Below, in pieces: positions 1 to 32,188 of a DNA stretch of 53,255 bases. Made by a program: the position numbers and the translations under genes. The first letter of the stretch is position 1. Every line of letters starts with the position of its first letter. The notes below the pieces were generated by a model. It saw only the letters and a list, made by a program, of their open reading frames with translations, was not told the origin of the DNA and did no database searches. This DNA is from Pseudooceanicola lipolyticus (GTDB lineage: Bacteria > Pseudomonadota > Alphaproteobacteria > Rhodobacterales > Rhodobacteraceae), in contig NZ_PGTB01000017.1 of the NCBI RefSeq assembly GCF_002786325.1, forward strand, positions 1-53,255. Reading direction: 5' to 3'.

Positions 1-2
1 TG

Positions 3-3461: not shown

Positions 3462-4680
3462 GTTTCCCCCTGCCGTTTTCTGGTGCCGAAACGTTATGCA
3501 CAAGCTTAGGCAGAGGTCGGCTAACAAAGCGTTGTGCCTTGTTAGAGCCTGATATCTGACCCAGCGCCATGCGGTGCAGGATCACCGACACCGCCAGCAG
3601 GCTGACCTTGTCGAAGGACCAGAACGCGCCGTTTTGCATCAGCAGCACAAACAGGATCGCCCAGGGGATGCCGCCGCGTGCCGACAGGAACAGCACCGCC
3701 AGCATCGCCATTCCGATCACGCCGTAATTGATCAGCGTGTTGAAGATGGCGTTATGGGAAAAGGACTCGTTGGCCAGGTCCATGCCCGGCAGGTAGCCCA
3801 TATCGAGGAAGACCCGGATCGGGATGCCGAACGGTGCCTCGCCCAGAACCCGGGGCAGCGCCAGCAGCGGCGTGGCGATGCGGCTGGCAAAAGAAAAATC
3901 CTCGCCCCTCAGGATGGCCCCGATACGCTCCGAGATCTCGCCGCCTGCCAGGGCCGCCCCGGCGGCGCCGGCGGCCAGCACCGTGACAAACAACAGCCCC
4001 TGACGTCGGTCGCCATGGCGCAGCAAGATCAGCGCCAGCGCCGCCGACATCGAGACCAGGCCCAGCATCGACAATGACAGGAAGGTGGCCAGCGCCAGAA
4101 CCAGGATGATGCCCCGCGCCAGGGCCGAGACCGGCCAGAGCGGTGACAGCGCCAGCACCAGCACGGTTGCGACCGCGGCAAGATAGGACGGTTCGCCGAA
4201 CGGCCCCGACGGGCGCACCCGTGAATGGCGCAGGTCCAGATCGGTGGGCAGGGTGTTGGTGTTGATGACGTAGAGGTCATGCGGCAGGCTGACAAACACG
4301 CCACGTTGCAGGCCGATGGTCTGGGCAATCACCAGCAGGGCCAGGCCCAGCGCGACCAGGCCGAGACAGCGCAGCGCCAGCCTTGCCTGGTTTGGGTTCA
4401 ACACGATCTTCCGCCGCAGCAACGCGATGATCATCAGGAAACACAGGGCCTCGCGGCCGGCGCGCAGGAGGTCGTGGCTGTCGGCCAGCGGGTGCAGCGC
4501 CGCCGTGGCCAGCATCGCCCAGACCACGAACAGGCAGGCAAAGATGCGCAGGGTGAGGAAGCCGCGCAGCCCGGTGGCGGCGGCAAGGCACAACGCCGCG
4601 GCAAGGGTGCTGACCGAGGCGTAAAAGCTGAGCCCGAGCTGCAGGAACGGCAGCAGCAGAACCGCCAGCGGCACCGCCAT
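3361..4680 (-). CDS. O-antigen polymerase/ligase-like membrane protein (Wzy-like)
   Basis: A 439-residue protein with around ten hydrophobic segments and one large periplasmic-type loop (~130-165) containing GPFGEPSYLA. A conserved GP.GEP/PSY stretch of this kind is common in Wzy polymerases and WaaL-like ligases. The role would be joining undecaprenyl-linked repeat units in the periplasm. It sits between two glycosyltransferases on the same strand. The last ~45 residues are hydrophilic and overlap the start of the GT4 gene by 101 bases, which is unusual. A hairpin lies in this stretch. A shift by two bases would end the protein at a TAA just inside that hairpin, so the C-terminus is uncertain. 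Confidence 0.72.
   Translation of the reverse strand: MAVPLAVLLLPFLQLGLSFYASVSTLAAALCLAAATGLRGFLTLRIFACLFVVWAMLATAALHPLADSHDLLRAGREALCFLMIIALLRRKIVLNPNQARLALRCLGLVALGLALLVIAQTIGLQRGVFVSLPHDLYVINTNTLPTDLDLRHSRVRPSGPFGEPSYLAAVATVLVLALSPLWPVSALARGIILVLALATFLSLSMLGLVSMSAALALILLRHGDRRQGLLFVTVLAAGAAGAALAGGEISERIGAILRGEDFSFASRIATPLLALPRVLGEAPFGIPIRVFLDMGYLPGMDLANESFSHNAIFNTLINYGVIGMAMLAVLFLSARGGIPWAILFVLLMQNGAFWSFDKVSLLAVSVILHRMALGQISGSNKAQRFVSRPLPKLVHNVSAPENGRGKHADIASDSDGGSGLWRPDRRDFRHYPLPGRTGT
3522..3544 (-). promoter_or_regulatory. Hairpin before the GT4 gene
   Basis: An inverted repeat with nine-base arms (TAACAAGGC on the minus strand, GCTTTGTTA as its partner with one G-U pair) around a five-base loop. 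It lies 60 bases upstream of the GT4 ATG and inside the apparent 3' end of the polymerase gene. No U-run follows, so it is a weak terminator candidate and could equally be a processing or binding site. Confidence 0.35.
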
Positions 4681-4689
4681 CCGGACGGC

Positions 4690-5448
4690 CTAGCCCGGCG
4701 CCAGGCGCCGGGCCCGCACCGCGTTCAGCGCCGGTTTGAACGGGCGCAACGCCAGCCGCTTGGCCTGGTAGGACAGCAGCACTGCCAGTGACAGCGGCGC
4801 CATGCCGAAATGCTGCACCCGCGCGTGGTGATAGGCGGTGAGGGTTTTGCCGGCATTGGCGATGCTGGTGCCCCCCGGTTCCATGATCGTCAACAACTCG
4901 TTCACGAAGACGATCTGCCGCCACACCGGGCAAAGCCGCAGCGACCATTCGTAATCCATCCCGAAGTGGCGGGTGCGGTCATAGGTGCCGAAGGTCGCGA
5001 ACAGGTCTCGACGGATCAGCATGGCCTGATGTGGCAGCTGGTTGTGCAGGTATTGCCGCCAGAACGGCGCCGAACGGCCATGCCGGCGCCCGGCCAGTTC
5101 GATGCGACCCACAATCACCGGCGCGCCACGATGGGTGTCGAGCAGGCGGGCCAGGGAAAAGGCCGCCCCCGGCGCAAGGCAGTCGCCGGCATTCAGGAAC
5201 AGGACATAATCGCCGCTGGCCCGTGCGACGCCCTTGTTGAAGGCATCGGCGATGCCGCGGTCCGGCTCGCTCACATGCGTGGCGATGCGCGGGGCAACCG
5301 CGGCAATTGCGGCGCCGGTGCCATCGGTCGAGGCGCCGTCGATCACCACCCATTCGGCGTTGTCCGGCGCATGGTCCAGGACGCTGCGGGCGGTGCGCCG
5401 GAACCCGGCGGCATGATTGCGAACGATGGTGATCAGCGACAGCGTCAT
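4690..5448 (-). CDS. Glycosyltransferase family 2 (WcaA/WcaE-like)
   Basis: A 252-residue inverting GT-A fold enzyme. Residues 1-12 hold the first strand (LSLITIVRN). The nucleotide-binding DGASTDGT is at 37-44. The usual DxD position is FLNAGD near residue 87, a variant seen in WcaE-type colanic acid transferases. The start at 5448 is set by GGAGGGG just upstream. It ends nine bases before the polymerase start, so the two are co-transcribed. It probably adds one sugar of the repeat unit at the cytoplasmic face of the membrane; donor and acceptor are not readable. Confidence 0.85.
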   Translation of the reverse strand: MTLSLITIVRNHAAGFRRTARSVLDHAPDNAEWVVIDGASTDGTGAAIAAVAPRIATHVSEPDRGIADAFNKGVARASGDYVLFLNAGDCLAPGAAFSLARLLDTHRGAPVIVGRIELAGRRHGRSAPFWRQYLHNQLPHQAMLIRRDLFATFGTYDRTRHFGMDYEWSLRLCPVWRQIVFVNELLTIMEPGGTSIANAGKTLTAYHHARVQHFGMAPLSLAVLLSYQAKRLALRPFKPALNAVRARRLAPG

Positions 5449-5526
5449 AAGCCCCTCCATGCGGGGCGGCTGCCCCAAAGGTGCAAAACGCTAGTCAGCG
5501 CAGACTTAAGAAACCGTAAATCGTGC

Positions 5527-6936
5527 TCAGCCGCCGTTCTGCGCCACCCGCACCGGCAGGGCCAGCACGGTGCCGTCGCCGGTGTGCTGCACCAGCTGCG
5601 TTTGGCCCGCGCCGGTTTGTGGCAGGTGCTGGCAGGCCTCGGGGTGGTCCTGGCAAATGATCACCTCGCGCCCGGTCAGATAGACCAGCCGCAGGCGCAA
5701 GCCGCGGGATTTCTGGATCGCGGCGCCCTTGGCCGAGGGCAGCTGTTCATAATCGCCGGTCACGTAGATCGGCCCGGTGCCCGGCCCGGCGGCCCGGGCA
5801 AAGGCGCGGGTATCGGCCTGCCAGGCGCGCGGCAGGGAATAGTTGACCGCGATCAGCACCGCGTGCAGCGCAATGGCGACGAACATGGCGTTCTGCGCCC
5901 GGCGGGCAGTGACGAGGCCCTGGTCGATGCCATTGGCCATCGCCATGCTGAGGATCATCGCGCAGCCGACCGAGACGAAGATCGCCGCGCGCGGGTCGAC
6001 ATCGACACCGGTTTTCAGCACGTGCAGCGACAACAGGCCCAGCCCGGCGGCACAGCCCGCCGCCACATAAAGGCCAAAACGAGGCGCGCTGCGCCAGACG
6101 ATCACCACCGCGCAGCTCAGCAGCGACGCCATGATGATCAGCAGCGGGATATGTTTGAAGGACAGCACGTTGGCCAGCCGGCCGAACATGGTCAGCACCA
6201 TGCCGAGATTGTGCCACAGCCCGGCCAGATCCTCGATCGGCCTGGGGTTGCGCCATTGCGCCATCGGAACGCCGAAGACGCCGTGATAGACATAGTTCAG
6301 CCCATAGATCAGCAACATTCCTGCGGCAAAGCTGGCGATGAAAATGCCCAGTGTCACCGCAAGGTCTTTCAGCGAGCGGTCGCGGTTGCGTGCGCCCAGC
6401 ACCACCATCAACAGCAGCACCGGATAGGTGGTGTAGCACAGCAGCGTCACCGGTACGAAAACCGGCAACAGCCAGCGCATGACATGTGGTGGATAACGCG
6501 TGGCCAGATAGGCGAACAGCGCCACGATGCCCAGGCCCGGGATCAGCGTGTTGTACCACAGCGAGATCACAAACGCGGTGGGGGCCAGCACGATCAGCAG
6601 GGCCAGCGCCAGCACCCGCCCGACGGGGGCGTCGCGGCCGAAGACGGCAATCGCGGTGCAGGCGGCGAACACGGCCCAGAACAGCTGATAGACCAGGAAA
6701 TTCAGCCAGGACGGCGTCACGACGCCGCGCAGGTGCCAGAGGTAATTGATCCAGCGGCCTTCCAGCAGGGTTTTTTCGTAATACAGCGTCTCGTCGCCCA
6801 GCAGCGCCGGAAAATCGTCATGCCGGATCATCGGGTCGATCAAGTTGGGCCCGGAACAGATCAGCAGCGCGACATAGGTCGCGGCAATCGCCGTGGGGAC
6901 GGGCGCCCGTTCCCAGAGTCGCGTCAGGGGGAGCAC
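5527..6936 (-). CDS. GtrII/GtrC-like glucosyltransferase membrane protein
   Basis: A 469-residue membrane protein with about ten hydrophobic spans and an early acidic loop (DDFPALLGDETLYYEKTLLE then GRWINYLW). This matches the exposed Asp-rich loop and G-R-W pattern of GtrII-type glucosyltransferases. These take a sugar from undecaprenyl phosphate in the periplasm and decorate O-antigen. It lies just downstream of gtrB, gtrA and a methyltransferase, which supports the assignment more than similarity alone. The GTG at 6936 is five bases past the methyltransferase stop, with AAGAGG upstream. The C-terminal ~120 residues form a soluble periplasmic-type domain. The sugar is unknown. Confidence 0.65.
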   Translation of the reverse strand: MLPLTRLWERAPVPTAIAATYVALLICSGPNLIDPMIRHDDFPALLGDETLYYEKTLLEGRWINYLWHLRGVVTPSWLNFLVYQLFWAVFAACTAIAVFGRDAPVGRVLALALLIVLAPTAFVISLWYNTLIPGLGIVALFAYLATRYPPHVMRWLLPVFVPVTLLCYTTYPVLLLMVVLGARNRDRSLKDLAVTLGIFIASFAAGMLLIYGLNYVYHGVFGVPMAQWRNPRPIEDLAGLWHNLGMVLTMFGRLANVLSFKHIPLLIIMASLLSCAVVIVWRSAPRFGLYVAAGCAAGLGLLSLHVLKTGVDVDPRAAIFVSVGCAMILSMAMANGIDQGLVTARRAQNAMFVAIALHAVLIAVNYSLPRAWQADTRAFARAAGPGTGPIYVTGDYEQLPSAKGAAIQKSRGLRLRLVYLTGREVIICQDHPEACQHLPQTGAGQTQLVQHTGDGTVLALPVRVAQNGG

Positions 6937-6940
6937 GTTC

Positions 6941-7696
6941 TCAGGCCTCTTGCCGCCTGGCCTGCCGGGCGATGGCCGCCGCGCGCACCTGGGCAATCCG
7001 CGTCACCGCCGGGCGCGGCAGGAAGGACACCACGCTGCGGCGCATCCGCCAACCCAGGCTGCCGGCGTTTTCCAGCGCCGTGCCGGCCGGGATCTCGCGC
7101 TCCAGCACCTGTTGCGGCAGGCCGGCGCGGCCGGCGGCGTTGACATACAGCACGGTGTTATAGCGATACCAGGGTTCGACATCGCCGGCATGGCGCAGGT
7201 TGGGGCGGATGCAGTCGAAGGCGGTATAGCCCTGCGCGGCAAACAGGTCCTGCCAGAAGGACAGCGGCTGTTCGTTGACGTGGAACTCGCCGCCCTGGCC
7301 ATTGACCGCGGCCGAGAACAGCACCCGGTCGCTGGCGCGCGTCAGGCTGTCGACCAATGTGGCCGAGGCGGTTTCGGGCAGGTGTTCGCCCACCTCCAGG
7401 CTTTGCGCCAGGTCAAAGCGTCGCCCGGTTTCGACCGGGCGGGTCAGGTCGGCGGCCAGAAAGGCATGGCCCGGCACCAGCAGCGCGGTGCGGTCGACAT
7501 AGGCGCCATCGACGCCGGTCACGTCGGTGACCCCCGCTTTGATCCATTCGGCCAGCCAGGCGCCCCGCCCACAGCCGAGGTCCAGCACGCTCTGCATTCC
7601 CAGCCAGGGCCGGATCAGCCCGATCATCCGCCGCGCCGAGGCGCGCGCGCCGCCGTCGATATAGTCGAAGAACTGGTTGTTGTAGATATGTGTCAT
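6941..7696 (-). CDS. Class I SAM-dependent methyltransferase
   Basis: A 251-residue enzyme with the SAM-binding motif LDLGCGRGAW at ~38-47 and an acidic strand end at TGVDGAYVD. SLEVGEHLPE follows, as in many glycan and small-molecule methyltransferases of the Methyltransf_23/FkbM-neighbour type. Its ATG overlaps the gtrA stop as ATGA and GtrII follows within five bases, so it belongs to one transcript. The likely target is a sugar or its lipid carrier in the same surface-glycan pathway, but this is inferred only from position. Confidence 0.8.
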   Translation of the reverse strand: MTHIYNNQFFDYIDGGARASARRMIGLIRPWLGMQSVLDLGCGRGAWLAEWIKAGVTDVTGVDGAYVDRTALLVPGHAFLAADLTRPVETGRRFDLAQSLEVGEHLPETASATLVDSLTRASDRVLFSAAVNGQGGEFHVNEQPLSFWQDLFAAQGYTAFDCIRPNLRHAGDVEPWYRYNTVLYVNAAGRAGLPQQVLEREIPAGTALENAGSLGWRMRRSVVSFLPRPAVTRIAQVRAAAIARQARRQEA

Positions 7697-8097
7697 AGCC
7701 CCTCCGGACAGGCGGTTTTGCCTGAATAGACCCATAATTTCAGGATGAGATAATTCTGCACCGGCAGGATGAGCGTCACCGCCAGGGCCGAGAGCCAACC
7801 CGCCCAGCCCAGGGCCGGGCCGATCCAGGCGGTGATGCCCGCCGAGACCAGCAGGCCCAGGCCGATCATCGCGGCAAACCGGGCGATCTGGTCGGGCACC
7901 GCCAGCTTGCGGCGAAAGGTGAACACGGTCTGGCCCAGGTATTGCAGCGCCACGGCGGCCAGAAACGCCGCCGCATTGGCGGTGATCCGGTGCAGCCCGG
8001 CAGCCTCCAGCGCCAGAAAGCACAGGATGTAGAACCCCGCGACACCGGCACCGACCGCGGCAAATCGGAGGAGGCGAAGATCCAGTCGCCGGATCAT
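7693..8097 (-). CDS. gtrA: GtrA-family membrane protein (undecaprenyl-sugar flippase)
   Basis: A 134-residue protein with four membrane segments. It has the GtrA hallmarks LLRFAAVGAGVAGFYI at the start, the N-A-A-A-F and Q-Y-L segment near residues 41-55, and FTFRRK after the second span. GtrA proteins are thought to flip undecaprenyl-phosphate-linked sugars to the periplasm. It overlaps gtrB upstream and the methyltransferase downstream by four bases each. Length and topology are normal for the family. Confidence 0.88.
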   Translation of the reverse strand: MIRRLDLRLLRFAAVGAGVAGFYILCFLALEAAGLHRITANAAAFLAAVALQYLGQTVFTFRRKLAVPDQIARFAAMIGLGLLVSAGITAWIGPALGWAGWLSALAVTLILPVQNYLILKLWVYSGKTACPEGL

Positions 8098-9068
8098 CCC
8101 CGTGCCTCGATCCGCAACGGTTCGATCTGGCTGTGGCCATGTGCCTCTTCGGAAATGAAGTAAAGCGGGCGCTTTTTCGCTTCCATGTAGATGCGGCCGA
8201 TATATTCGCCCATGATCCCCAGCGTCAGCAGCTGGATGCCCGAGAAAAAGCTCATCGCCAGCAGCATCGAGGCCCAGCCCGGTGCAGTGCTGAACCAGAT
8301 GAAGGAGAAGATCACGTAAAGCCCGGTCAGGAACGACACCAGCAGGCTGAAAAAGGCCAGCCGGATGGCAAAGCGCAGCGGCCGCGCCGAAAACCCGGTC
8401 AGCGCGTCGGTGGCAAAGCGCAGCATCGCCCTGAGCGGGTATTTGGTTTCGCCGGCGCGGCGCGGTTCGCGCACATATTCCAGCCCGATCTGCCGATAGC
8501 CGGCCCAGGCGAACATGCCGCGCACGAACCGGGCGCGCTCTGGCATCGCCAGCACCGCGTCCAGCGCGCGGCGCGACACGATGCGGAAATCGCCGGTATC
8601 CTTCGGGATCGGCACGTCGGACAACGCGTTCAGCACCCGGTAGAACAGGTAGGCCGAGGCCTTTTTGAACAGGCCCTCGCCCTTGCGCTGGGCGCGGCGG
8701 CCAAACACCACGTCATAGCCCTGATCCATCAGCGCCATCATCTCGCGCAGCAGTTCCGGCGGGTCCTGCAGGTCGGCATCCAGCATGAAGATGCGCTGGC
8801 CCTTGGCGGCCTCCAGCCCGGCGGTCAGCGCCACCTGGTGGCCGCGATTGGCCGACAGGCGCAGCCCGGCGATCTGCGGGAACTCGCGCCCGGCGGCGGC
8901 AATCGCGGCCCAGGTGCCATCGGTCGAACCGTCATCGACCAGCAGGATCTCGGCCCGGTCGGCCCAGGGCGCAATGGCGGCGGACAGGCGGCGGGCCAGT
9001 TCCGGGATCGTTTCCTCTTCGTTCATGCAAGGCACGACAACCGAAAGATAAGGTGCGATCTGTCTCAT
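8094..9068 (-). CDS. gtrB: GtrB-like undecaprenyl-phosphate glycosyltransferase
   Basis: A 324-residue GT2 enzyme that charges undecaprenyl phosphate with a sugar. The GT-A domain has VVVPCMNEEE at ~10-19, DDGSTDGT at 45-52 and the metal-binding DADLQDP at 97-103. Two C-terminal membrane spans at ~230-260 and ~268-290 flank a short loop, as in GtrB/DPM1-type proteins. IGRIYMEAKKRPLYF near the end is characteristic. It is the first gene of the minus-strand series, with about 240 bases of shared upstream region facing motB. Confidence 0.92.
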   Translation of the reverse strand: MRQIAPYLSVVVPCMNEEETIPELARRLSAAIAPWADRAEILLVDDGSTDGTWAAIAAAGREFPQIAGLRLSANRGHQVALTAGLEAAKGQRIFMLDADLQDPPELLREMMALMDQGYDVVFGRRAQRKGEGLFKKASAYLFYRVLNALSDVPIPKDTGDFRIVSRRALDAVLAMPERARFVRGMFAWAGYRQIGLEYVREPRRAGETKYPLRAMLRFATDALTGFSARPLRFAIRLAFFSLLVSFLTGLYVIFSFIWFSTAPGWASMLLAMSFFSGIQLLTLGIMGEYIGRIYMEAKKRPLYFISEEAHGHSQIEPLRIEARG

Positions 9069-9247
9069 GGCTTGGGCCCCTGGCTGTGCACGGTTCCGCG
9101 TTTCTTGGATCGGGCGGCAATTCCGGTCTTGTTTCGCTGAAAACTAGCCGGGGAACGTGGCCCGGTTGGGACTGATTTGTGGAATTGGTTGGGCAGGGCC
9201 GGTGCCCTTCCAACCGGTCCGAGGCGACCTGAGAACAATGCAATTTG

Positions 9248-9263
9248 TTAACCCGGCGCTAAT
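9248..9263 (+). promoter_or_regulatory. CtrA-like box upstream of motB
   Basis: TTAA-CCCGGCG-CTAAT fits the TTAA-N7-TTAA pattern bound by the cell-cycle regulator CtrA, with one change in the second half. It is 48 bases before the motB start. The same seven-base spacer occurs in the flgE box. CtrA control of motility is known in Rhodobacteraceae; binding here is inferred. Confidence 0.55.
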
Positions 9264-9310
9264 CCCGCTGCGCCTATTCCTGGGACCGGACGAGTGGAAA
9301 GGTGGTGAAG

Positions 9311-10171
9311 ATGGCTGCGCCGACAAACGCCGCGCCGGTCATCATCAAGCGGAAAAAGGTCACCGGTGGCGCTGGCCACCATGGCGGCGCATGGAAGGTG
9401 GCCTATGCCGATTTCGTGACCGCGATGATGGCCTTTTTCATGCTGATGTGGCTGTTGAACGCGACGACCGAGAAACAGCGCAAGGGGCTGGCGGATTACT
9501 TTTCGCCCTCAGTTCCGCTGCATCGTGTTTCGGGGGGCAGCGATGATCCCTTCGGGGGCGAAAGCGTGTTTGCCGACGACACTTTGTTGAAAGACGGCAT
9601 CGGCAGCACCGAGGAACACGCAACCGAGAGCCGGGTTGCCGAGGGGCGCACCGGAGTTGACCCCGACGACGAGGATGCGGCAGCAGAGGCGGCGTTCAGC
9701 GCGCTGGAGGAGGTGCTGAAAGGGCGCGGCGGCGAAAGCCTGGTCAGCGACAAGATCCTCCAGCATATCGTCACGCGGGTCACCGACGAGGGGCTGGTGA
9801 TCGAACTGTTCGCGCTGCCCGGCGCGCCGCTCTTCGCCGCCGGGGGCGACCACCCCACCGACTTGCTGCTTGATCTGACCGCGATGATCGCGCGCGTCAC
9901 CGGCAGGGTCGACAATGACATCGCCATCGGCGGCCATGTGCGCGCCAATCCGGTGGTGCAAATCGCCAACCCGGTCTGGGATCTGTCCACGGCCCGCGCC
10001 GCGCGTGTTCGGCGCCTGCTGGAGTCGGCCGGCACCCGGCCAAATCGGCTGAGGCGGGTCACCGGCCATGCCGACCGCAGCCCGGCGCTGCGCGACCCGA
10101 TGGCGGTGCGGAATGACCGCGTCGAGATCACGCTGCTGCGCCGCGGGGCCGGCGGCGGCCTTCGGAAGTGA
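9311..10171 (+). CDS. motB: Flagellar motor stator protein MotB
   Basis: A 286-residue stator subunit that anchors MotA to peptidoglycan and conducts ions to drive flagellar rotation. The N-terminus has a basic segment and HHGGAWKVAYADF, with the proton-carrying Asp at residue 34 at the head of the single membrane span (~33-53). After an acidic linker (~75-130), a C-terminal OmpA-like peptidoglycan-binding domain carries LSTARAARVRRLLE and ends RNDRVEITLL. The ATG at 9311 matches the usual start (MAAPTNAAPV); GTGs at 9302 and 9305 are in frame. motA is not in the window. Confidence 0.93.
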   Translation: MAAPTNAAPVIIKRKKVTGGAGHHGGAWKVAYADFVTAMMAFFMLMWLLNATTEKQRKGLADYFSPSVPLHRVSGGSDDPFGGESVFADDTLLKDGIGSTEEHATESRVAEGRTGVDPDDEDAAAEAAFSALEEVLKGRGGESLVSDKILQHIVTRVTDEGLVIELFALPGAPLFAAGGDHPTDLLLDLTAMIARVTGRVDNDIAIGGHVRANPVVQIANPVWDLSTARAARVRRLLESAGTRPNRLRRVTGHADRSPALRDPMAVRNDRVEITLLRRGAGGGLRK

Positions 10172-10186
10172 GCGGTATTTTACCTG

Positions 10187-10202
10187 TTAGCCCGGCGTTA
10201 AG
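10187..10202 (+). promoter_or_regulatory. CtrA-like box upstream of flgE
   Basis: TTAG-CCCGGCG-TTAAG, a TTAA-N7-TTAA-like element 57 bases before the flgE ATG. Its spacer is identical to the one in front of motB. A GCGCCGGCGGC stretch follows directly. Confidence 0.55.
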
Positions 10203-10257
10203 CGCCGGCGGCCTAAGCTTGGGCCCGACCTGAACCGACGCAGCAGAAAGGCGCCGC

Positions 10258-11700
10258 ATGACCATCTCTTCCTCGCTGAATGCCGGGGTCGCCGGGCTGA
10301 CATCGAATGCCAGCCGGCTGGCCTCGATCTCGGACAATATCGCGAATTCCTCGACTCACGGGTACAAGCGCGTGCGCACCGATTTTCAGTCCATTGTCAT
10401 TTCCGAAACCGGCGGCAAATATTCCGCGGGGGGCGTGCGTGCCACCTCGCAGCGGCTGATCGACGAACGCGGCCCGCTGGTGTCGACCTCGAACGCCACC
10501 GACCTGGCGGTGCGCGGCCGCGGCATGCTGCCGGTGGCTTCGGCGGCCGAGGTGGCTGCCGGCAACGGCAATATCCAGATGCTGCTGGCCACCACCGGAT
10601 CCTTCCGCACCGAGTCCGACGGCTACCTGACCACCGAATCCGGGCTGGTGCTGCTGGGCTGGCCCGCGCTGGCCGACGGCACCATCCCGAATTATCCCAG
10701 CGACACGGCCGATGCGCTGGACCCGGTGCGGATCAACGTCAACGAATTCACCGGCGAACCGACCACCTCGATGCGCCTGGGCGTCAATCTGCCGGCCACC
10801 GGTACCGAATCGACCGCCGACGGCACCATCCAGGAACTGTCGATCGAATATCTCGACAATCTCGGAAAATCGGAAAACATCCGCTTCACGTTCGAACCAA
10901 CCATTCCGGCGGCCGGAGCGTCCAATACCTGGACGATGCGGATGGAAGATTCGGCGCAGCCGGGCGTCACCATCGGCGAATATGATCTCACCTTCGATAA
11001 CAGCCGCGCCGATGGCGGCACGCTGGACACGGTCACCACGGTCAGCGGCGGTGCCTTCGACGCCACCACCGGCACGCTGATCGTCAATGTCGCCGGCGGG
11101 CCGATCGAAGTGGATATCGGCATTCCCGGCGAAACCGGCGGCATTAGCCAGCTGTCCGACCGCTTCGCGCCGATCGAGATCTCGAAAGATGGCACCCCGG
11201 TTGGCAACCTGACCTCGGTCGAGATCGACGAAAGCGGCTTTGTGCATGCCACGTTCGATTCCGGCATCACCCGCACCATCTACAAGATCCCGCTGGTCGA
11301 CCTGCCCAACCCCAACGGCATGCTCTCGCTGGACCAGCAGACCTATAAGCCTTCGAATGAAAGCGGCACGTTCTATCTGTGGGATGCTGGCGAAGGGCCA
11401 ACCGGTGATATCGTCTCTTACGCGCGCGAGGAATCCGCGGTCGATGTGGCGGGCGAATTGACCGCGATGATCCAGACCCAGCGCGCCTATTCCTCCAACG
11501 CCAAGGTGATCCAGACGGTGGAATTGTCCTTCGCCCCGGCGATGGTTTTCCCGGTCGAGATTTCGTCCTGGGTCTTCGCCAGGTTCATATTGATCGATTT
11601 GAGGGTCTGCAGCGCCACCATCGCGCTGTTATTGGTCAGTATACTCGACATAGTGTTTCCTTCACGCGTTGGGCAGGTTCCGCCCGGTTTTTTGCCGTGA
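10258..11700 (+). CDS. flgE: Flagellar hook protein FlgE, 3' end replaced by antisense flagellin sequence
   Basis: The N-terminus is a standard hook protein start (MTISSSLNAGVAGL, then the rod/hook signature SDNIANSSTHGYKR at ~24-37). The variable surface domains follow. The C-terminal helix reads VAGELTAMIQTQRAYSSNAK-VIQTV, as in FlgE. After VIQTV (about residue 421) the frame continues for ~59 residues that are the complement of a flagellin 5' end, giving an odd hydrophobic tail. Normal FlgE ends ~12 residues after this point. The native part is 10258-11522. The missing residues belong to the terminal D0 coiled coil needed for hook packing, so this copy is probably non-functional. flgK and flgL, often next in related genomes, are absent. 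Confidence 0.85.
   Translation: MTISSSLNAGVAGLTSNASRLASISDNIANSSTHGYKRVRTDFQSIVISETGGKYSAGGVRATSQRLIDERGPLVSTSNATDLAVRGRGMLPVASAAEVAAGNGNIQMLLATTGSFRTESDGYLTTESGLVLLGWPALADGTIPNYPSDTADALDPVRINVNEFTGEPTTSMRLGVNLPATGTESTADGTIQELSIEYLDNLGKSENIRFTFEPTIPAAGASNTWTMRMEDSAQPGVTIGEYDLTFDNSRADGGTLDTVTTVSGGAFDATTGTLIVNVAGGPIEVDIGIPGETGGISQLSDRFAPIEISKDGTPVGNLTSVEIDESGFVHATFDSGITRTIYKIPLVDLPNPNGMLSLDQQTYKPSNESGTFYLWDAGEGPTGDIVSYAREESAVDVAGELTAMIQTQRAYSSNAKVIQTVELSFAPAMVFPVEISSWVFARFILIDLRVCSATIALLLVSILDIVFPSRVGQVPPGFLP
11487..11651 (-). pseudogene. fliC: Flagellin 5' remnant
   Basis: From the ATG at 11651 the minus strand reads a normal flagellin N-terminus (MSSILTNNSAMVALQTLKSI, then AKTQDEISTGKTIAGAKDNS). 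AAGGAAA lies just upstream of the start. Around T-V-W (bases 11511-11522) it runs into the complement of flgE and stops at 11487. About 47 of the usual several hundred residues remain, so the D0/D1 core, the variable region and the C-terminal helix are lost. No second flagellin is in the window. Confidence 0.85.
11511..11522. other. Deletion junction with 12-base microhomology
   Basis: CCAGACGGTGGA is the point where flgE coding sequence (I-Q-T-V-D/E) and flagellin coding sequence (S-T-V-W, read on the minus strand) coincide. Both parents plausibly carried this word in the same + strand orientation. A single copy left at the join is the footprint expected of a deletion between short direct repeats. 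Confidence 0.65.
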
Positions 11701-11797
11701 CCGGCAAAGCAATCGACCTTCTGACCAATGCGAAGCCCCGGCTTGCGGGGTCGCGCCACCCGATGTGCAGGTGCGCTGCCAAGATGAGCGCGAATTG

Positions 11798-11812
11798 CTA
11801 AGGGAGTGCTAA
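11798..11812 (-). promoter_or_regulatory. CtrA-like box upstream of the flagellin remnant
   Basis: On the minus strand TTAG-CACTCCC-TTAG, about 147 bases before the flagellin ATG. It matches TTAA-N7-TTAA with one change per half. It lies in the gap between the flgN-like gene and flagellin, where the original flagellin promoter would be. Confidence 0.45.
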
Positions 11813-11853
11813 TGTCTCCCCGTCCTGTCGCTTGGATTTAAATCAATCCGGCC

Positions 11854-12219
11854 CTAAACGCGCTTTTCAACCCTGGGGCTGCGCTGCGCCGGGACGTGGC
11901 TGCGGCGCCCGTCCCGATCATAGGTTTCAAGCCCCGCGCGCAGGCGTCGAAGCGCGGCCAGGCGGGATTCAACAGCGCGGATGCCCTGCATCGCATTTGC
12001 CAAAAGCGCCTGATTGCGCAGCAATTTTTCCCTGCGGGCGCCAAGATCGTGCGGTATCTGATCGCGTTGCTGCCCCAGCCGCTGCACCAGCGCCTGCTTC
12101 TGCGCTGTCATTGCGCCGATCTCGTCCAGATCGCCATGCAATAGCGCCGTGCGCTCGCGCAGAAGCAGCCGGTCAAGCTGTTCGAGCAACTCCGCTGCCT
12201 GTTCATCCGCCACGGTCAC
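11854..12219 (-). CDS. FlgN-like flagellar chaperone
   Basis: A 121-residue mostly helical protein with heptad-like Leu spacing (AAELLEQLDRLLLRERTALL near the start). It has the Gln/Arg-rich middle and the YDRDGRR...SPRVEKR tail seen in Rhodobacteraceae FlgN-type proteins. FlgN holds the hook-filament junction proteins FlgK and FlgL before export. The GTG start at 12219 overlaps the flgJ-like gene by 17 bases and has GGAG upstream; a second in-frame GTG follows two codons later. Its usual clients are not encoded here. The call rests on size, composition and position. Confidence 0.65.
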   Translation of the reverse strand: MTVADEQAAELLEQLDRLLLRERTALLHGDLDEIGAMTAQKQALVQRLGQQRDQIPHDLGARREKLLRNQALLANAMQGIRAVESRLAALRRLRAGLETYDRDGRRSHVPAQRSPRVEKRV

Positions 12220-12475
12220 GCTCCGCCAGCGCGTTGAACAGCGTTTCGGCCAGGCCGATGCCGCCGGCCTCGGCCATTGCCTCCGCCTGTGCCTGCACTA
12301 GGAAGGACGCGAATTGCGCCTCGCCCGCGCCACCACCGAAGCCTCCGCGCGCCGGGCCCAGCCCGGCCGATTCGAGCATTTCGGCCAAAAACGTTGCCTC
12401 AAGCTGCTGCGCGGCCTGTTGCAGGGCCTGCTGACGTTGGAGCGGGACAGAAACCGGAACTACCGTTTGCACCAT
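12203..12475 (-). CDS. Rod-binding FlgJ/CheL-like protein
   Basis: A 90-residue protein corresponding to the rod-binding half of FlgJ (core QLEATFLAEMLESAGL at ~23-38 and a GEAQFASFLVQAQAEA segment). It lacks the muramidase domain of enterobacterial FlgJ. In alphaproteobacteria this short form (also called CheL) helps assemble the rod. The ATG at 12475 has GAGG upstream. It is translated together with the flgN-like gene and diverges from fliK across ~108 bases that contain a CtrA-like box. Confidence 0.75.
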   Translation of the reverse strand: MVQTVVPVSVPLQRQQALQQAAQQLEATFLAEMLESAGLGPARGGFGGGAGEAQFASFLVQAQAEAMAEAGGIGLAETLFNALAERDRGG

Positions 12476-12522
12476 CAGTTGCCTCGAATTGTGCGGATGA
12501 GAGTGAGTTTGCGGATCAGGAG

Positions 12523-12538
12523 TTAAAATAATGGTAAC
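12523..12538 (+). promoter_or_regulatory. CtrA-like box between flgJ-like gene and fliK
   Basis: TTAA-AATAATG-GTAAC; on the minus strand it reads TTAC-CATTATT-TTAAC, close to the full TTAA-N7-TTAAC consensus. It is 46 bases before fliK and 48 bases before the flgJ-like ATG, so it could serve both directions. Confidence 0.55.
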
Positions 12539-12583
12539 CCGCAGCTGTCATGGTTTGCCCCGATCAGCACAGCGCGGAGCGAC

Positions 12584-14488
12584 ATGGATACCACCCCAAT
12601 CCTTCGGCCCTCGGCAACGGCGGTGAGCCTGCCCCTCGGCTTGGCCGCACCGGCGTCCGGCCTGGCGGAATCGAATGGCGATTTTGCCGGGATCTTCCGG
12701 CAGCTGTGGTCGTTTGCACAGAGGCCCGAGACTGGCTCCAGCGAGAGGCGCGCAGTGACTGCGCCGGAGGATTTGGAAACCCATGGAGATGCGGCGGCTG
12801 CAGAACATGCCGACCCTGCCGAGGTCATCCCAGCGGATGCCGGCTTGGACACAGAGCGGCAGGCGTCGGTGGTGGAGCCGCCGGAGAGGTCTGGGCGGGC
12901 ACCGGGCAGGGCGCCGCCGCCCGGCAGGTTCGAAACGGTCGGCCGCGAAGATGGCTGGACGCAGCAGGAAAAGGCCCCGATCGGCGTGCCAACGGCAGAG
13001 ATATCCTCGCGCATGCTTGGACCCGAGCGGCAGGACATTGCCGCACCGATTCAGGCTGCGGAGGAGGCGGAGGCGCAGGCGAAGGCGCCTCTTGCACCGA
13101 TAATCGCAGCAGGACAACAACGGTCGCTCGGCCAGAACCGCGCAGTGCTTCAGATGTTGTCAATGTCTTCCCAAAGGCCTGCGCCGCCAGATCCACAACC
13201 GTCGATCAAATCGGCACCGGCACGGACGGCGCCGTCCGAGGCGGCGAGGACTATTGATGTTCACGCAAACGGCGATCGTCTGTCAGCGCCCCCGGCCCGA
13301 CCGGGGGCGGCATTGGCCGATCAGCGCGAACCGCCACCCGCATGGGCCAGCAGTTCGGTCCCGCCGGACCGGGACGCCGCACCGGCGCAACCCGGTGTTC
13401 CCCCTATTGCCCCGTTCTCTTTGCAACAGGGGGAGGGTGGCTTGCACCTTGCGCAGGGCAGCCCGCGACGAGGTTTTGAATCCGCATGGGCGGCGGGCGA
13501 TCCGGACAGAGCGCTTGCCCGGACCTCAGCGCGCGCGTCCTGCACGCATTTTTCGCCACTGGTTCCGGAGGTTTCTCGACATGGGTCAGGCATGACGCGA
13601 CCGCGATTGGCGGAACGGGGGCAACCGGTCCAACCCGTTGAGGACGCGCCCCCATCGCAATCCGCAGAGCTGCTGGCAAAGCGCAAACCGGCCGATGCCA
13701 TTCCGATACTGCGCGCGGCCCAAGAAGCAGGGCCTGCGGCTCCGCCCATCACGCAGGTCGCCGCAGGAAGGCCGGACAAGGCGGCAACCCTGGCTGCGCG
13801 CACCGCCGCCCTGCAGGGCCGGCATGAAAGGCAAATTGCGCAACCCGGTGAACTCCCAAATCCCGAGCACAGTATCGTCGGGCTCGCCCCGACCCAGACC
13901 GGTCAGACCCCGCCTCCAGATGGCAACCACCAGTTGCCCCCGGTGACGCAGATTGACTCAACTGGGCAGACCAGGGCGGGCGCGAACGGTCTCGCGCGGC
14001 TTGACCAGCCCGGGGGCGAGCGCGGTGATGCGGCACCCTTGCGCCTGGACATCTCTGGATTGACCAATCCGACAGGCGGCGACCCACAGCTGCAGAAAAG
14101 CGAAGCGGCGCGGGTTCCCACCGCACAGCTGGTGGACCATCTGCTGCGCCAGCCGGAGCGGGCGGTGGAAATCTCGCTGCATCCGCGCGAGCTGGGGCGG
14201 GTTCACATGGCGCTGGCGGTTTCAGAGCACGGGATGACGCTGACCATCACCGCCGACCGTCCCGAAACCCTGGACCTGATGCGCCGGCATATCGACCAGC
14301 TTGCGCAGGAGTTCCGGCAACTGGGTCAAAACGAAGTCGGTTTTGCCTTTCGCCAGGGTGATGCCGATCGCCAGCCGGGGCAGGACCAGAACGCCGTGGC
14401 GGGACCGGTTGCCGGCGATGCAAAGGAGGCGGCCGAACCGCTCTATCTGGGGCCGGTGGTGCACACCGGGCTCGATCTGAGGTTGTGA
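12584..14488 (+). CDS. fliK: Flagellar hook-length control protein FliK
   Basis: A 634-residue protein with a long low-complexity Pro/Ala/Gln-rich N-terminal part (~1-500), thought to act as the ruler. The folded C-terminal Flg_hook domain at ~525-605 contains VEISLHPRELGRVHMALAV and a helical segment ending EVGFAFRQGD. FliK measures the hook during secretion and switches the export apparatus to filament substrates. GGAG precedes the ATG. It overlaps no upstream gene and runs directly into flgD. Its length is at the upper end for the family because of the linker. Confidence 0.85.
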   Translation: MDTTPILRPSATAVSLPLGLAAPASGLAESNGDFAGIFRQLWSFAQRPETGSSERRAVTAPEDLETHGDAAAAEHADPAEVIPADAGLDTERQASVVEPPERSGRAPGRAPPPGRFETVGREDGWTQQEKAPIGVPTAEISSRMLGPERQDIAAPIQAAEEAEAQAKAPLAPIIAAGQQRSLGQNRAVLQMLSMSSQRPAPPDPQPSIKSAPARTAPSEAARTIDVHANGDRLSAPPARPGAALADQREPPPAWASSSVPPDRDAAPAQPGVPPIAPFSLQQGEGGLHLAQGSPRRGFESAWAAGDPDRALARTSARASCTHFSPLVPEVSRHGSGMTRPRLAERGQPVQPVEDAPPSQSAELLAKRKPADAIPILRAAQEAGPAAPPITQVAAGRPDKAATLAARTAALQGRHERQIAQPGELPNPEHSIVGLAPTQTGQTPPPDGNHQLPPVTQIDSTGQTRAGANGLARLDQPGGERGDAAPLRLDISGLTNPTGGDPQLQKSEAARVPTAQLVDHLLRQPERAVEISLHPRELGRVHMALAVSEHGMTLTITADRPETLDLMRRHIDQLAQEFRQLGQNEVGFAFRQGDADRQPGQDQNAVAGPVAGDAKEAAEPLYLGPVVHTGLDLRL

Positions 14489-14491
14489 TTG

Positions 14492-15160
14492 ATGACGCTT
14501 GAAGTGACCCAAAATTCCGCCGGCGTGACCGCAAACAGCCCCGGCGCAGCGCGTGGCAATGCGGCGACGCTGGCCTCGGATTTTGAGACCTTTCTGAAAA
14601 TGTTGACCGCCCAGGCCAGGTATCAGGACCCGCTCGACCCGATCGATTCCACCGAATATGCCGCACAGCTGGCGCAATTCTCGATGGTGGAACAGCAGGT
14701 TCTGACCAATGACAGGTTGGCGGCGCTGTCTGCGGGCTTTGATACCTTTACCGCCGCCTCGCTTGCGAGCTGGATCGGGATGGAGACCCAGGCCGCCGCC
14801 CCGGCGCAATTCGGCGGCGCCCCGGTCACCATTGTGCCTTCCGTGGCGGGTGGGGCCGATGCGGCGGTGCTGGTGGTCAAGGATGCCAGCGGCGCGCCGG
14901 TGCAACGTTTGCCAATCGGCACAAGCGATGCCCCCTTCGACTGGATGGGGCAGGATGACAGCGGTGCGCCGTTTCCGCAGGGTGTCTATAGCTTCGAGGT
15001 GGAAAGCCGGAAAAATGGCGAATTGCTGTCCACGGCGCCGGCGGCGGTTTATGCCCGCGTGGCCGAGGCGCGTATCGAGGAGGGCAAGGTCATCCTGGTG
15101 CTGCAAGGCGGCGGTGAGGTTGCCGCCGCTGCGGTGACCGCCTTGCGCCGGCCATCCTGA
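14492..15160 (+). CDS. flgD: Flagellar hook-capping protein FlgD
   Basis: A 222-residue hook-assembly scaffold. The N-terminal motif FETFLKMLTAQARYQDPLDP (~30-49) and EYAAQLAQFSMVEQQV (~54-69) are the FlgD signature. The rest is the FlgD Ig-like/tudor-like region, with QDDSGAPFPQGVYSFEVE. Its ATG is three bases after the fliK stop, so the pair is translationally coupled; a TTG at 14489 is a less likely start. FlgD caps the growing hook while FlgE subunits insert, yet the flgE in this window is broken. Confidence 0.92.
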   Translation: MTLEVTQNSAGVTANSPGAARGNAATLASDFETFLKMLTAQARYQDPLDPIDSTEYAAQLAQFSMVEQQVLTNDRLAALSAGFDTFTAASLASWIGMETQAAAPAQFGGAPVTIVPSVAGGADAAVLVVKDASGAPVQRLPIGTSDAPFDWMGQDDSGAPFPQGVYSFEVESRKNGELLSTAPAAVYARVAEARIEEGKVILVLQGGGEVAAAAVTALRRPS

Positions 15161-15168
15161 ATGAGCCG

Positions 15169-15193
15169 CGGGCTGCCGTTCCCCGGCAGCCCG
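15169..15193. terminator. Bidirectional terminator between flgD and ugd
   Basis: A perfect ten-base stem (CGGGCTGCCG/CGGCAGCCCG) with a five-base loop, lying between two genes that converge. Only a weak T-rich stretch follows on +. Confidence 0.65.
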
Positions 15194-15202
15194 GACTTGT
15201 GC

Positions 15203-16570
15203 TTACTCGGCCGGGTCGGCGACCACGGGTTCGCGCACCTCCGGCGGCGTCGCCTCGACAAAATCGGTGCGGCCCACCGAGACATAGCGTTTGAATCCTG
15301 CCCGCTTGGCATCGCGCGACGAGTAGATGTTGCGCAGATCCGCCAGCGCGGCAAAGTGCATGCCTTCGGCCAGGCGTTTGAGGTCCAGCGCGCGAAATTC
15401 GTTCCACTCGGTCAGGATGACCAGCGCATCGGCGTCCTTGGCGGCCTCATAGGCATCGTCCAGCCAGTTGACCCCCGGCAGCAGATCGACCGCCTCGCGG
15501 TGGCCCTGCGGGTCGACCGCGCGCACCTTGGCACCGCCACCGATCAGCGCCGGGATCACCGTCAGCGACGGCGCTTCGCGCATGTCGTCGGTGTTGGGCT
15601 TGAAGGTCACACCCAGCACCGCGATGGTCTTTCCGGCAATCTTGCCGTCCAGCATGTCGGCGACCTTGTCCACCATGCGGCGGCGGGTTTCCTCGTTCAC
15701 CTTGATCACCGTCTCGGTGATCTGCATCGGCAGGCCGTATTCCTGACCGATCCGCGCCAGCGCCTTGGTGTCCTTGGGGAAGCACGAGCCACCATAGCCG
15801 GGGCCGGCATGCAGGAACTTGTTGCCGATCCGCCCGTCCAGGCCCATGCCCTGGCTGACCAGCTTCACATCGGCGCCGGTGCGTTCGCACAGGGCGGCGA
15901 TTTCGTTGATGAAGGTGATCTTGGTCGCCAGGAACGCGTTGGCGGCGTATTTGATCATCTCGGCGCTTTCCAGATCGGTGGTCAGGATCGGGAAGTCGCG
16001 CAGGTAGAGCGGTCGGTAGATCTCGGACATCACCTCGGCCGCGCGGTCATTCTGCACGCCGACAACGATACGGTCGGGGCGCATGAAATCGTCGATCGCC
16101 GCGCCTTCGCGCAGGAATTCGGGGTTCGAGGCGACGTCGAAATCGGCCTTGGGGTTGGCCCGGGCGATGGTCTCTTTCACCTGCCGGTTGGTTCCGACCG
16201 GCACGGTCGACTTGGTCACCACCACGGCATAGCCGGTCAGCGCCTGGGCGATCTCTTCGGCGGCCTTCATCACGAAGGTCAGGTCGGCATGGCCGTCGCC
16301 GCGCCGGGTGGGGGTGCCCACAGCGATAAACACCGCGTCGGCGCCATCAACCGCCTCTTGCAGGTTGGTGGTAAAGGACAGGCGGCCGCTTTCGACATTC
16401 TTGGCCATCAGCAGATCAAGGCCCGGTTCGTAGATCGGCACGCCGCCCGCGCGCAGCGTTTCGATCTTCCTCGGATCCTTGTCGACGCAAATCACGTCAT
16501 GGCCGAAATCGGAAAAACAGACACCCGAGACCAGGCCAACATACCCGGTGCCGATCATAGCAATCTTCAT
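15203..16570 (-). CDS. ugd: UDP-glucose 6-dehydrogenase
   Basis: A 455-residue enzyme that oxidises UDP-glucose to UDP-glucuronate with two NAD+, supplying acidic sugars for surface polysaccharides. The N-terminal Rossmann motif is IGTGYVGLVSGVCF (~6-19). The central domain has STVPVGTNR and NPEFLREG. The catalytic Cys is at residue 263 in GGSCFPKD. The UDP-binding C-terminal domain contains GVTFKPNTDDMREAPS. It has normal length. It lies 72 bases downstream of the FAD oxidase on the same strand but has no functional link to it; its partners are the polysaccharide genes elsewhere in the window. Confidence 0.95.
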   Translation of the reverse strand: MKIAMIGTGYVGLVSGVCFSDFGHDVICVDKDPRKIETLRAGGVPIYEPGLDLLMAKNVESGRLSFTTNLQEAVDGADAVFIAVGTPTRRGDGHADLTFVMKAAEEIAQALTGYAVVVTKSTVPVGTNRQVKETIARANPKADFDVASNPEFLREGAAIDDFMRPDRIVVGVQNDRAAEVMSEIYRPLYLRDFPILTTDLESAEMIKYAANAFLATKITFINEIAALCERTGADVKLVSQGMGLDGRIGNKFLHAGPGYGGSCFPKDTKALARIGQEYGLPMQITETVIKVNEETRRRMVDKVADMLDGKIAGKTIAVLGVTFKPNTDDMREAPSLTVIPALIGGGAKVRAVDPQGHREAVDLLPGVNWLDDAYEAAKDADALVILTEWNEFRALDLKRLAEGMHFAALADLRNIYSSRDAKRAGFKRYVSVGRTDFVEATPPEVREPVVADPAE

Positions 16571-16642
16571 ACTGGTACCCTCAAATGCGCTTTGAGAAAG
16601 GGATCCGCGATGCGGGAATCGAAGTCAACAATACAGGCGCCC

Positions 16643-17953
16643 TCAGCGGTCGCCAATTGCGCTGGCGAGGTAAAATGGCGGCATCAGGATGCGTCTTGCA
16701 GCACCCAGCGGAAACCGGTCCAGCGGGCCCCGCATCGCCCGGGGCGGCAGCGTGGTGCCCTGGACCAGCCCGGCCAGCAGCTTGCCGGTATAGGTGCCCA
16801 TGGCGACGCCGTTGCCGTGATAGGCGAGCCCGGCGAACAGGCCCGGCTGGTTCGGCACCGGGCCGGCAAAGGGCACGCGCCGGCGGCTGAGACAGACCAT
16901 TCCGGACCATAAATAAGGGCTTTCCACATGTGCCCAGGCGGGAAACATCGCTTCGAAATGGGCGCGGGTGCGGGCCCGTGCCCGTGCCTCGGCGGCGGGC
17001 GAGGACAGCAGCCCGCCACGCATGCCGAACAGGAATCGGCGGTCGGGCATCAGGCGGAAATAATGCAGCAGACCGCGGGTGTCATAGGCCATCTGCGCGC
17101 TGGTCCAGCCCTGCGCCTGCAGTTCTTTCCCGGTCATCGGGCGGGTCACCAGCACGTTGGATTGCGCCGGCATATAGCGCCCGGCCAGCCAGTTGGGTAC
17201 ATCTTCGCTGGAATAGCCGTTGGTGGCGACAATCACCTGGCGGGCGCGCAACTGTCCACGGTTTGTGCGCAGACGATAACGACCAGAGAGAGAATCGATT
17301 CCCGTCACCTCGCTTCTCTGGAACAGTTGCGCCCCGACCGAGCGGGCCGCCGCCGCCAGCCCGAACAGGTATTTCAGCGGGTTCAGCGCAAAGCCCCAGG
17401 GCAGGGTGAGCGCGCCGTGAAACGGCCCGGCCATGCCCTGTGCGGCCAGATCTTCGGGTTCGATCAGCTGCGCCTTGTCGGGGCCCAGCGCTTCTGCCTG
17501 GGCGCGCAGCGCATCCATGTCGCGCGGGCGGTGCGCCAGTTGGGTTTCGCCCTGCGAATGGGTGTCGGCCTTGATGCCGAAACGGTCGATCAGGGCGGCG
17601 ACCAGCGCCACCGCGTCCTGTTGCGCCTGCCAGAATTCCTCGGCCGCGCCGGCGCCAAAGCTGCGCTCGATCTGTGCATGACTCCGCATTGCGCCGCCGA
17701 TGCAGCAAAAGCCGCCATTGCGCCCCGAGGCGCCCCAGCCCGGGCTGCGCGCCTCCAGAACGGCGACGCGGGCGCCGGCTTCGGCCAGATGCAGCGCTGC
17801 GGACAGGCCGGTGAAGCCGCCGCCGATGATCGCGACATCGGCCTTGCGTTCGCCTTGCAACTGCGGCCAGTCTGGCGGCGTGACGGTTTCGGGCCACCAG
17901 CAGCCGTCGCGCGGGGCGTCGCCATAGGCAAAGCCCGAAAAGATCCGCTTCAT
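16643..17953 (-). CDS. FAD-dependent amine oxidase (PuuB/DadA-like)
   Basis: A 436-residue flavoenzyme of the DAO fold. The FAD-binding motif VAIIGGGFTGLSAALHLAEA sits at ~41-60 and ends in an acidic residue at LEA. R-N-G-G-F and a C-terminal GLAYHGNGVAMGTYTGKLLA segment are typical of gamma-glutamylputrescine oxidoreductase and its relatives. The first codon overlaps the last permease gene as ATGA. Position in a putrescine/spermidine transport operon suggests it oxidises an imported polyamine or a derivative. Other amino-acid or glycine oxidase roles cannot be excluded. Confidence 0.8.
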   Translation of the reverse strand: MKRIFSGFAYGDAPRDGCWWPETVTPPDWPQLQGERKADVAIIGGGFTGLSAALHLAEAGARVAVLEARSPGWGASGRNGGFCCIGGAMRSHAQIERSFGAGAAEEFWQAQQDAVALVAALIDRFGIKADTHSQGETQLAHRPRDMDALRAQAEALGPDKAQLIEPEDLAAQGMAGPFHGALTLPWGFALNPLKYLFGLAAAARSVGAQLFQRSEVTGIDSLSGRYRLRTNRGQLRARQVIVATNGYSSEDVPNWLAGRYMPAQSNVLVTRPMTGKELQAQGWTSAQMAYDTRGLLHYFRLMPDRRFLFGMRGGLLSSPAAEARARARTRAHFEAMFPAWAHVESPYLWSGMVCLSRRRVPFAGPVPNQPGLFAGLAYHGNGVAMGTYTGKLLAGLVQGTTLPPRAMRGPLDRFPLGAARRILMPPFYLASAIGDR

Positions 17954-32068: not shown

Positions 32069-32188
32069 TGTAATGCTCCATCTGACCAATAGGCGCGCGA
32101 TGACTCAGGAGGTTGTGGAGCCATGCGGCGGGCCGCGCGGCGAATCCTTCACTCCGTCGATTTGCGTGCCTAATCCCCTAACACCGAC

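Follow-up and report, generated by a model that had tools for sequence, protein, structure and literature searches.

The window analysed here, a stretch of 53,255 nucleotides, is the entire contig C88 of a draft genome of Pseudooceanicola lipolyticus (5.23 Mb in 439 contigs, completeness 99.16, contamination 5.68%). It contains an open reading frame at 10258-11700 (480 aa) whose product carries residues foreign to FlgE at its C-terminal end. The FlgE reading is normal through codon 421 (window position 11520) and then continues into the antisense of a flagellin start, the ATG of which lies at 11651. On the minus strand, translation and Pfam give a flagellin from 11651 that reads MSSILTNN...DNSTVW, and this frame in turn runs on through the antisense of flgE to make a 54-residue ORF. 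Compared with the full-length flgE of relatives, the missing tail of flgE amounts to 12 or so codons (…DEMLQETT…). The join and the genes around it are as follows.

9302-10171, plus strand: intact motB of the fla1 type (Pfam MotB_plug, 9.5e-20; 56-60% identity to the flgE-adjacent motB of relatives)
10258-11520, plus strand: flgE codons 1-421 (Pfam Flg_bbr_C and Flg_bb_rod; flgE is full length in relatives)
11511-11522, no strand: shared 12-mer CCAGACGGTGGA, which fits the reading of flgE and of flagellin
11519-11523, no strand: the join, with T11519 as the last flgE-specific base and A11523 as the first flagellin-specific base (from 48 intact flgE and 14 intact flagellin sites)
11520-11651, minus strand: flagellin (fla/fliC) codons 1-44 (Pfam Flagellin_N positions 1-44)
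11854-12219, minus strand: flgN (Pfam FlgN, 1.2e-7; relatives have flgN at the same place)
12203-12475, minus strand: flgJ-like gene for a rod-binding protein (Pfam Rod-binding, 3.1e-9)
12584-14488, plus strand: fliK, hook-length control (Pfam Flg_hook, 1.4e-16)
14489-15160, plus strand: flgD, hook cap (Pfam FlgD, 2.5e-17)

The join in the window is confirmed as real. An initial annotation made from these letters alone had described flgE as joined head-on to an inverted flagellin 5' end across 10258-11700, and translation, Pfam, blastn and the recurrence described below all bear this out; when window positions 9001-17000 were compared by blastn with 12 named loci, the alignment ended at 11519-11522 in 10 of them. 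The compatibility of CCAGACGGTGGA with the reading of both genes likewise held, and we agree that an assembly fault of the usual kind would need a longer overlap than 12 bases. The genes on either side follow the fla1-type arrangement: motB-flgE form one end, flagellin-flgN-flgJ-fliK-flgD make up the opposite one, and all are oriented as in the relatives. Passages of Tomasch et al. (2025, PMC12363192) describe the fla1-type cluster as having motB at one end and flgD at the other, and as inherited vertically with independent losses.

In five intact relatives (G003, G002, G025, G026, and G020), the two sites that meet at the join lie 20,248-27,157 bases apart. The genes between them include flgK, flgL, flgI, fliP, fliF, fliL, motA, flhA, fliR, flhB, flgH, flgG, fliI, a gene for a DUF1217 protein, and the rest of flagellin (named by Pfam for ten G003 proteins, and by likeness for the others). 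The missing stretch is the core of the fla1-type cluster described by Tomasch et al., from flgK through most of flagellin. The relatives thus bear out the proposal that a deletion took the end of flgE, most of flagellin, and everything between them, including flgK, flgL, flgI, and much more. A single deletion requires that flgE and flagellin be convergent on one contig, which is the case in 9 of 18 intact relatives; the two genes share a contig in another arrangement in 5, G005 among them, and lie on separate contigs in the remaining 4. The supposition that the relatives' arrangement permits one deletion therefore holds for half of this set but not for G005, the closest FlgE match among the 18, where the flgE and flagellin ends are ∼130 kb apart and cannot give the join in this way. 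A simple inversion was also considered and rejected because the core would then remain in the genome, whereas the core genes tested are absent elsewhere in it.

A genome-wide search for fla1-type flgI, flhA, motA, flgG, and a full flagellin returned distant copies only. FlgI, FlhA, and MotA are each present once, with 52%, 38%, and 51% identity to their fla1 relatives, and the FlgG of this genome is 46% identical to fla1 FlgG. Besides the fragment at the join, the flagellin family is represented by one flagellin and one protein of the flgL type, both on contig C9, where flgK and flgL are fla2-like. The second flagellar set that the initial annotation had thought worth looking for is therefore present: it is fla2-like and is spread over at least four short contigs, C9 (L004), C127 (L041), C59 (L053), and C96 (L054). 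The FlgE of this set shares 39% identity with the window's FlgE, and the FlgI on C9 shares 79.2% with its counterpart on the Marinovum algicola plasmid pMaD5. By their sequences, the copies on the four contigs look like one fla2-type set, akin to the cluster on pMaD5 of M. algicola DG 898; the likeness is that the window's genome carries such a set, and the difference is that this set has no part in the join. The earlier statement that the remaining genes are left without hook and filament is accurate for the fla1 set, but a fla2-like set remains, provided that its contigs belong to the organism (contamination 5.68%). Parts of Tomasch et al. (2025, PMC12363192) likewise describe some Rhodobacterales strains that combine fla1 with fla2.

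To assess recurrence, we ran a 201-base probe that spans the join against 395 family genomes, each representing a different genus. The probe matched somewhere in 294 genomes, the ordinary ones giving the flgE piece, the flagellin piece, or both. In at least 12 of the 395 genomes, among matches listed down to about E = 6e-19, it matched end to end across the join: G000 (the window's own), G393, G131, G165, G178, G414, G128, G153, G307, G141, G164, and G418. The join is nucleotide-identical in at least 11 other genera. Several of these 12 fused genomes are assembled in 1-3 contigs, some in a single contig, and neither the window nor the 20 kb loci retrieved from the other 11 contain any N. The gene order motB-flgE'-fla'-flgJ-flgD is the same in all 12, each of which also has fliK-like and flgN-like ORFs (the flgN-like ORF of G141 was picked up in a separate look), and in every one of them 131 nt separate flgE codon 421 from the flagellin ATG. 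The end points are thus the same in 12 of 12, but a probe designed from this join would overlook other joins. When 148 loci were scanned with a degenerate pattern of the join, 10 of the 12 fused genomes gave a match and none of the intact loci did. The recurrence evidence is all drawn from one genome collection; the join is absent from PLSDB and IMG/VR, databases that hardly hold such chromosomes.

Fla1-type FlhA is absent from all 12 fused genomes: four have a distant FlhA only, G141 has no match, and the other seven are not among the matched genomes. Eight of the 12 have no other flagellin, while the remaining four have one, of weaker score in G000 and G131 and of higher score in G414 and G128, that of G000 being typed as fla2. 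We left G070, with a weaker match over probe positions 33-193, out of the count because its fla1 FlhA is intact. Twelve genomes in which FlhA gave no match cover the probe partly (G036, G094, G098, G124, G182, G241, G264, G266, G270, G282, G291, and G293), as do three less complete genomes (G032, G139, and G346). The partial match of G293 was not located in the 400 kb from its genome ends that were searched, its last 33 kb lying outside this span.

Other features of the window and of the compared loci deserve a brief description. To the left of motB, window positions 1-9068 hold glycosyltransferases and an O-antigen-ligase-like ORF, to which nothing corresponds in the 240 kb of G005 used for comparison. 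To the right of flgD, gene blocks in 15203-47000 match contig 3 of G005 in shuffled order: 15-24 kb of the window corresponds to 40-31 kb of that contig reversed, 25-29 kb to 133-129 kb reversed, and 32-47 kb to 149-165 kb, which amounts to several chromosomal rearrangements next to the cluster. An ORF of 844 residues at 29555-32089 combines a von Willebrand A domain with RTX calcium-binding repeats. Elsewhere in the collection, FlhA is split over two frames in G009 contig 3 (L033) and has one in-frame TGA in G216 contig 2, possibly as early fla1 decay by point changes. On plasmid pFER4 of Paracoccus ferrooxidans (L150), a flagellin and a fliK fragment lie between IS3 and IS5 transposases, an untidy fla1 remnant compared with the clean join of the fused genomes.

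The point of exchange can be placed to within a few bases. The middle base of flgE codon 421 is T in all 48 readable intact genes (49 tried), and the matching base is C in all 14 readable intact flagellins (18 tried) because these have Ala where the window has Thr. All 12 fused genomes have flgE's T; every exchange therefore fell to the right of this T and to the left of the first flagellin-specific base, a span of 2-3 bases. With T in flgE and C in intact flagellins at base 11519, the parent genes probably did not share a perfect 12-base repeat as had been assumed, and the 12-mers of the two sites agree at 8, 9, 9, 9, and 11 of 12 bases in the five intact relatives. In each of these relatives' clusters, between 783 and 4,732 pairs of 12-mers that differ at no more than one position lie over 10 kb apart, and the actual pair of sites is worse than such competing pairs in four of the five. 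One deletion through a 12-base direct repeat, as initially proposed, is thus upheld as to the deletion, but the repeat does not suffice to explain it, being imperfect in relatives and having hundreds to thousands of rivals of similar quality; that chance chose this pair repeatedly is not credible. We also considered long homology or inverted repeats at the sites, and found no extended direct or inverted homology around them beyond that at random places in the five intact relatives. Conservation of the flgE site at the DNA level was set aside as well: synonymous variation in flgE codons 402-430 is only weakly lowered, to 0.81-0.85 of expectation, although this is the lowest part of the gene.

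On gene trees, the fused genomes are scattered among intact ones. An RpoB tree of 30 genomes, in which the partial sequences of G024, G027, and G032 were retained, needs 8 changes between the two states and rejects a fused clade (p-AU 8e-39). FlgE trees need 10 changes in 30 rows and likewise in 61 rows; with five long or short rows removed, the tree of 56 rows needs 8 (p-AU 7.7e-8). For FlgD, 8 changes are again required and the p value against a fused clade is 1.1e-5, and a tree of the 44 flagellin codons beside the join needs 10 (p 0.009). These are quick trees of modest support, in which well-supported (starred) branches alone force 4-5 changes, and their intact genomes are a non-random choice (18 top relatives by FlgE, 20 genomes from the flgE matches listed, and 11 named loci). 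The FlgE trees place two pairs of fused genomes together on starred branches, G153 with G141 and G164 with G418. We rejected the idea that a single deletion allele had spread by gene exchange: flagellin codons 1-44, FlgD, and FlgE each reject a fused clade, and flagellin codon 44, directly beside the join, is Ser or Ala and varies among fused genomes as it does among intact ones. It follows that the fused state either had several origins or is an old state with several reversals. Repeated loss is favored by the vertical inheritance of the core that passages of Tomasch et al. (2025, PMC12363192) report.

The leftover genes look intact and constrained. Across the 12 fused genomes, flgE, flgD, flgJ, and fla' contain no in-frame stop; two motB alignments each show a single stop, which is the natural end of the gene. 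In the fused pairs for which it could be computed, flgE dN/dS is 0.08-0.17, similar to intact pairs, with synonymous sites near saturation. Changes at otherwise invariant sites are not commoner in fused than in intact genomes for FlgD, FlgJ, and fla', and are slightly more frequent in fused genomes for FlgE and MotB (p 0.03 and 0.004). The FlgE tail past the join is not conserved, the ORF ranging from 437 to 518 aa across the fused genomes. Either the losses are recent in all fused lineages, or the leftover genes are still used.

The reading that we favor, tentatively and at a strength that falls a little short of probable, is that several lineages independently lost the fla1 core by the same deletion, which is exact to the nucleotide and runs from codon 421 of flgE to codon 44 of flagellin. 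We infer that the two sites themselves may steer the exchange. They would come into register on a CCAGAC core that stems from conserved codons, those of IQTV in FlgE and the antisense of those of DN[SA]AVW in flagellin. A new strand would copy flgE up to the end of the match and then switch to flagellin; with flgE copied before the switch, flgE's T would be left in every product. The genes motB, flgE', fla', flgN, flgJ, fliK, and flgD would then be orphaned leftovers, separated too recently for decay. Such a hot spot explains the register, the strand, and the kept T, but not the preference for this pair. Several observations speak against the reading: nothing found accounts for the reuse of this pair among 783-4,732 competitors, none of the 12 loci has decayed, which is odd for recent repeated losses, the G005 arrangement cannot yield the join by one deletion, and the modest tree support leaves only 4-5 changes forced by starred branches. 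When template switching deletes DNA spontaneously between short direct repeats, many different repeats are used. The present case resembles it in that two short, partly matching stretches of the same orientation leave one copy at the join, and differs from it in that the same imperfect pair serves in scattered lineages.

Among the other explanations, we regard it as unlikely that the stretch was dropped systematically by assembly or data handling rather than by cells. An identical join in 12 genomes, flanked by genes that look as if the cluster still worked, known from one collection and without an independent copy in PLSDB or IMG/VR, is what such an artefact might leave, and named fla1 remnants elsewhere decay untidily, with IS elements. 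However, the missing length would vary by genome, there is no repeat inside the stretch that an assembler could collapse, several fused assemblies consist of 1-3 contigs with no N at the loci, and the spacing of 131 nt puts the join off the codon boundary of both genes. An error confined to this assembly is a different matter and very unlikely: the genome is a draft of 439 contigs with 5.68% contamination, but the same join stands in other genomes, single-contig ones included, and none of the tested fla1 genes turns up at another place in the assembly. A single recent deletion in this organism through the 12-base direct repeat, a highly improbable account although slightly less so, would yield the window's join, with a 12-mer that fits both genes; it is contradicted by the same join in at least 11 more genomes and by the imperfection of the repeat in relatives. 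The initial annotation had left the choice between a recent, perhaps laboratory, loss and an assembly error. Because the identical join recurs in at least 11 other genera, several of them assembled in 1-3 contigs, neither an isolated event nor an assembly error is supported, and an assembly error or one laboratory deletion is very unlikely.

Two further explanations give the leftovers or the sites a function. If the outer genes and the exact join were useful without a flagellum and preserved by selection, the low flgE dN/dS (0.08-0.17) and the undisturbed invariant sites of FlgD, FlgJ, and fla' would be expected, and the grouping of G153 with G141 and of G164 with G418 would mean that the fused state may predate those genera. 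Against this stand the absence of the export gate (FlhA) and of any other flagellin in 8 of the 12 genomes, which leaves hook, cap, and chaperone proteins without anything to work with, the slight excess of changes at invariant sites of FlgE and MotB, and the unconserved FlgE tail; selection on a product would also leave the nucleotide-fixed join unexplained, and we consider such a kept remnant improbable. We hold it somewhat less improbable, although still unlikely, that a site-specific recombinase cuts the fla1 core out in circular form between one site in flgE and another in flagellin and so makes cells non-motile. The sequenced genomes would then be in the excised state, and their species would otherwise be motile. 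Programmed excision would suit the exactness of the join, its polyphyly, the intact and constrained leftovers, and the fact that the same strand was chosen each time at the single mismatch. Yet no recombinase was found among the 10 core proteins of G003 scanned; some 15 others of the stretch lay outside the scan, most of them recognizable as like known flagellar genes. The reciprocal junction of a circle is absent from 202 loci and from IMG/VR, FlhA gives no sign of the core at another place in the 12 genomes, and the identical overlap at the exchange point is only 2-3 bases. In heterocystous cyanobacteria, the nifD element is excised by XisA, a recombinase coded within the element, and the gene is restored. 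That system is like ours in that a large block inside coding sequence is lost between short direct repeats at a fixed place, and unlike it in that no recombinase was found here (10 G003 proteins) and both genes stay broken. The broader idea that Rhodobacterales have a built-in excision of the fla1 core at a fixed pair of sites in flgE and flagellin, by which motility is abandoned, with most genomes uncut and a few per cent cut, is in our estimate a minority prospect.

Sporadic losses of fla1 in Rhodobacterales, as presented in parts of PMC12363192, concern the same cluster, are independent of one another, and in some strains meet a combination with fla2. That work deals with presence and absence, and a search of its text brought up neither remnants nor truncated genes nor a join common to several genomes. 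The literature searched, which included passages of PMC12843797 and PMC11943960, yielded no description of a join, remnant, or excision of this kind.

Loss of flagella is common and is regarded as haphazard. An identical, nucleotide-exact loss in many lineages would be gene loss along a fixed track, laid either by a deletion hot spot built by two conserved protein motifs or by a cellular excision of the flagellar core.
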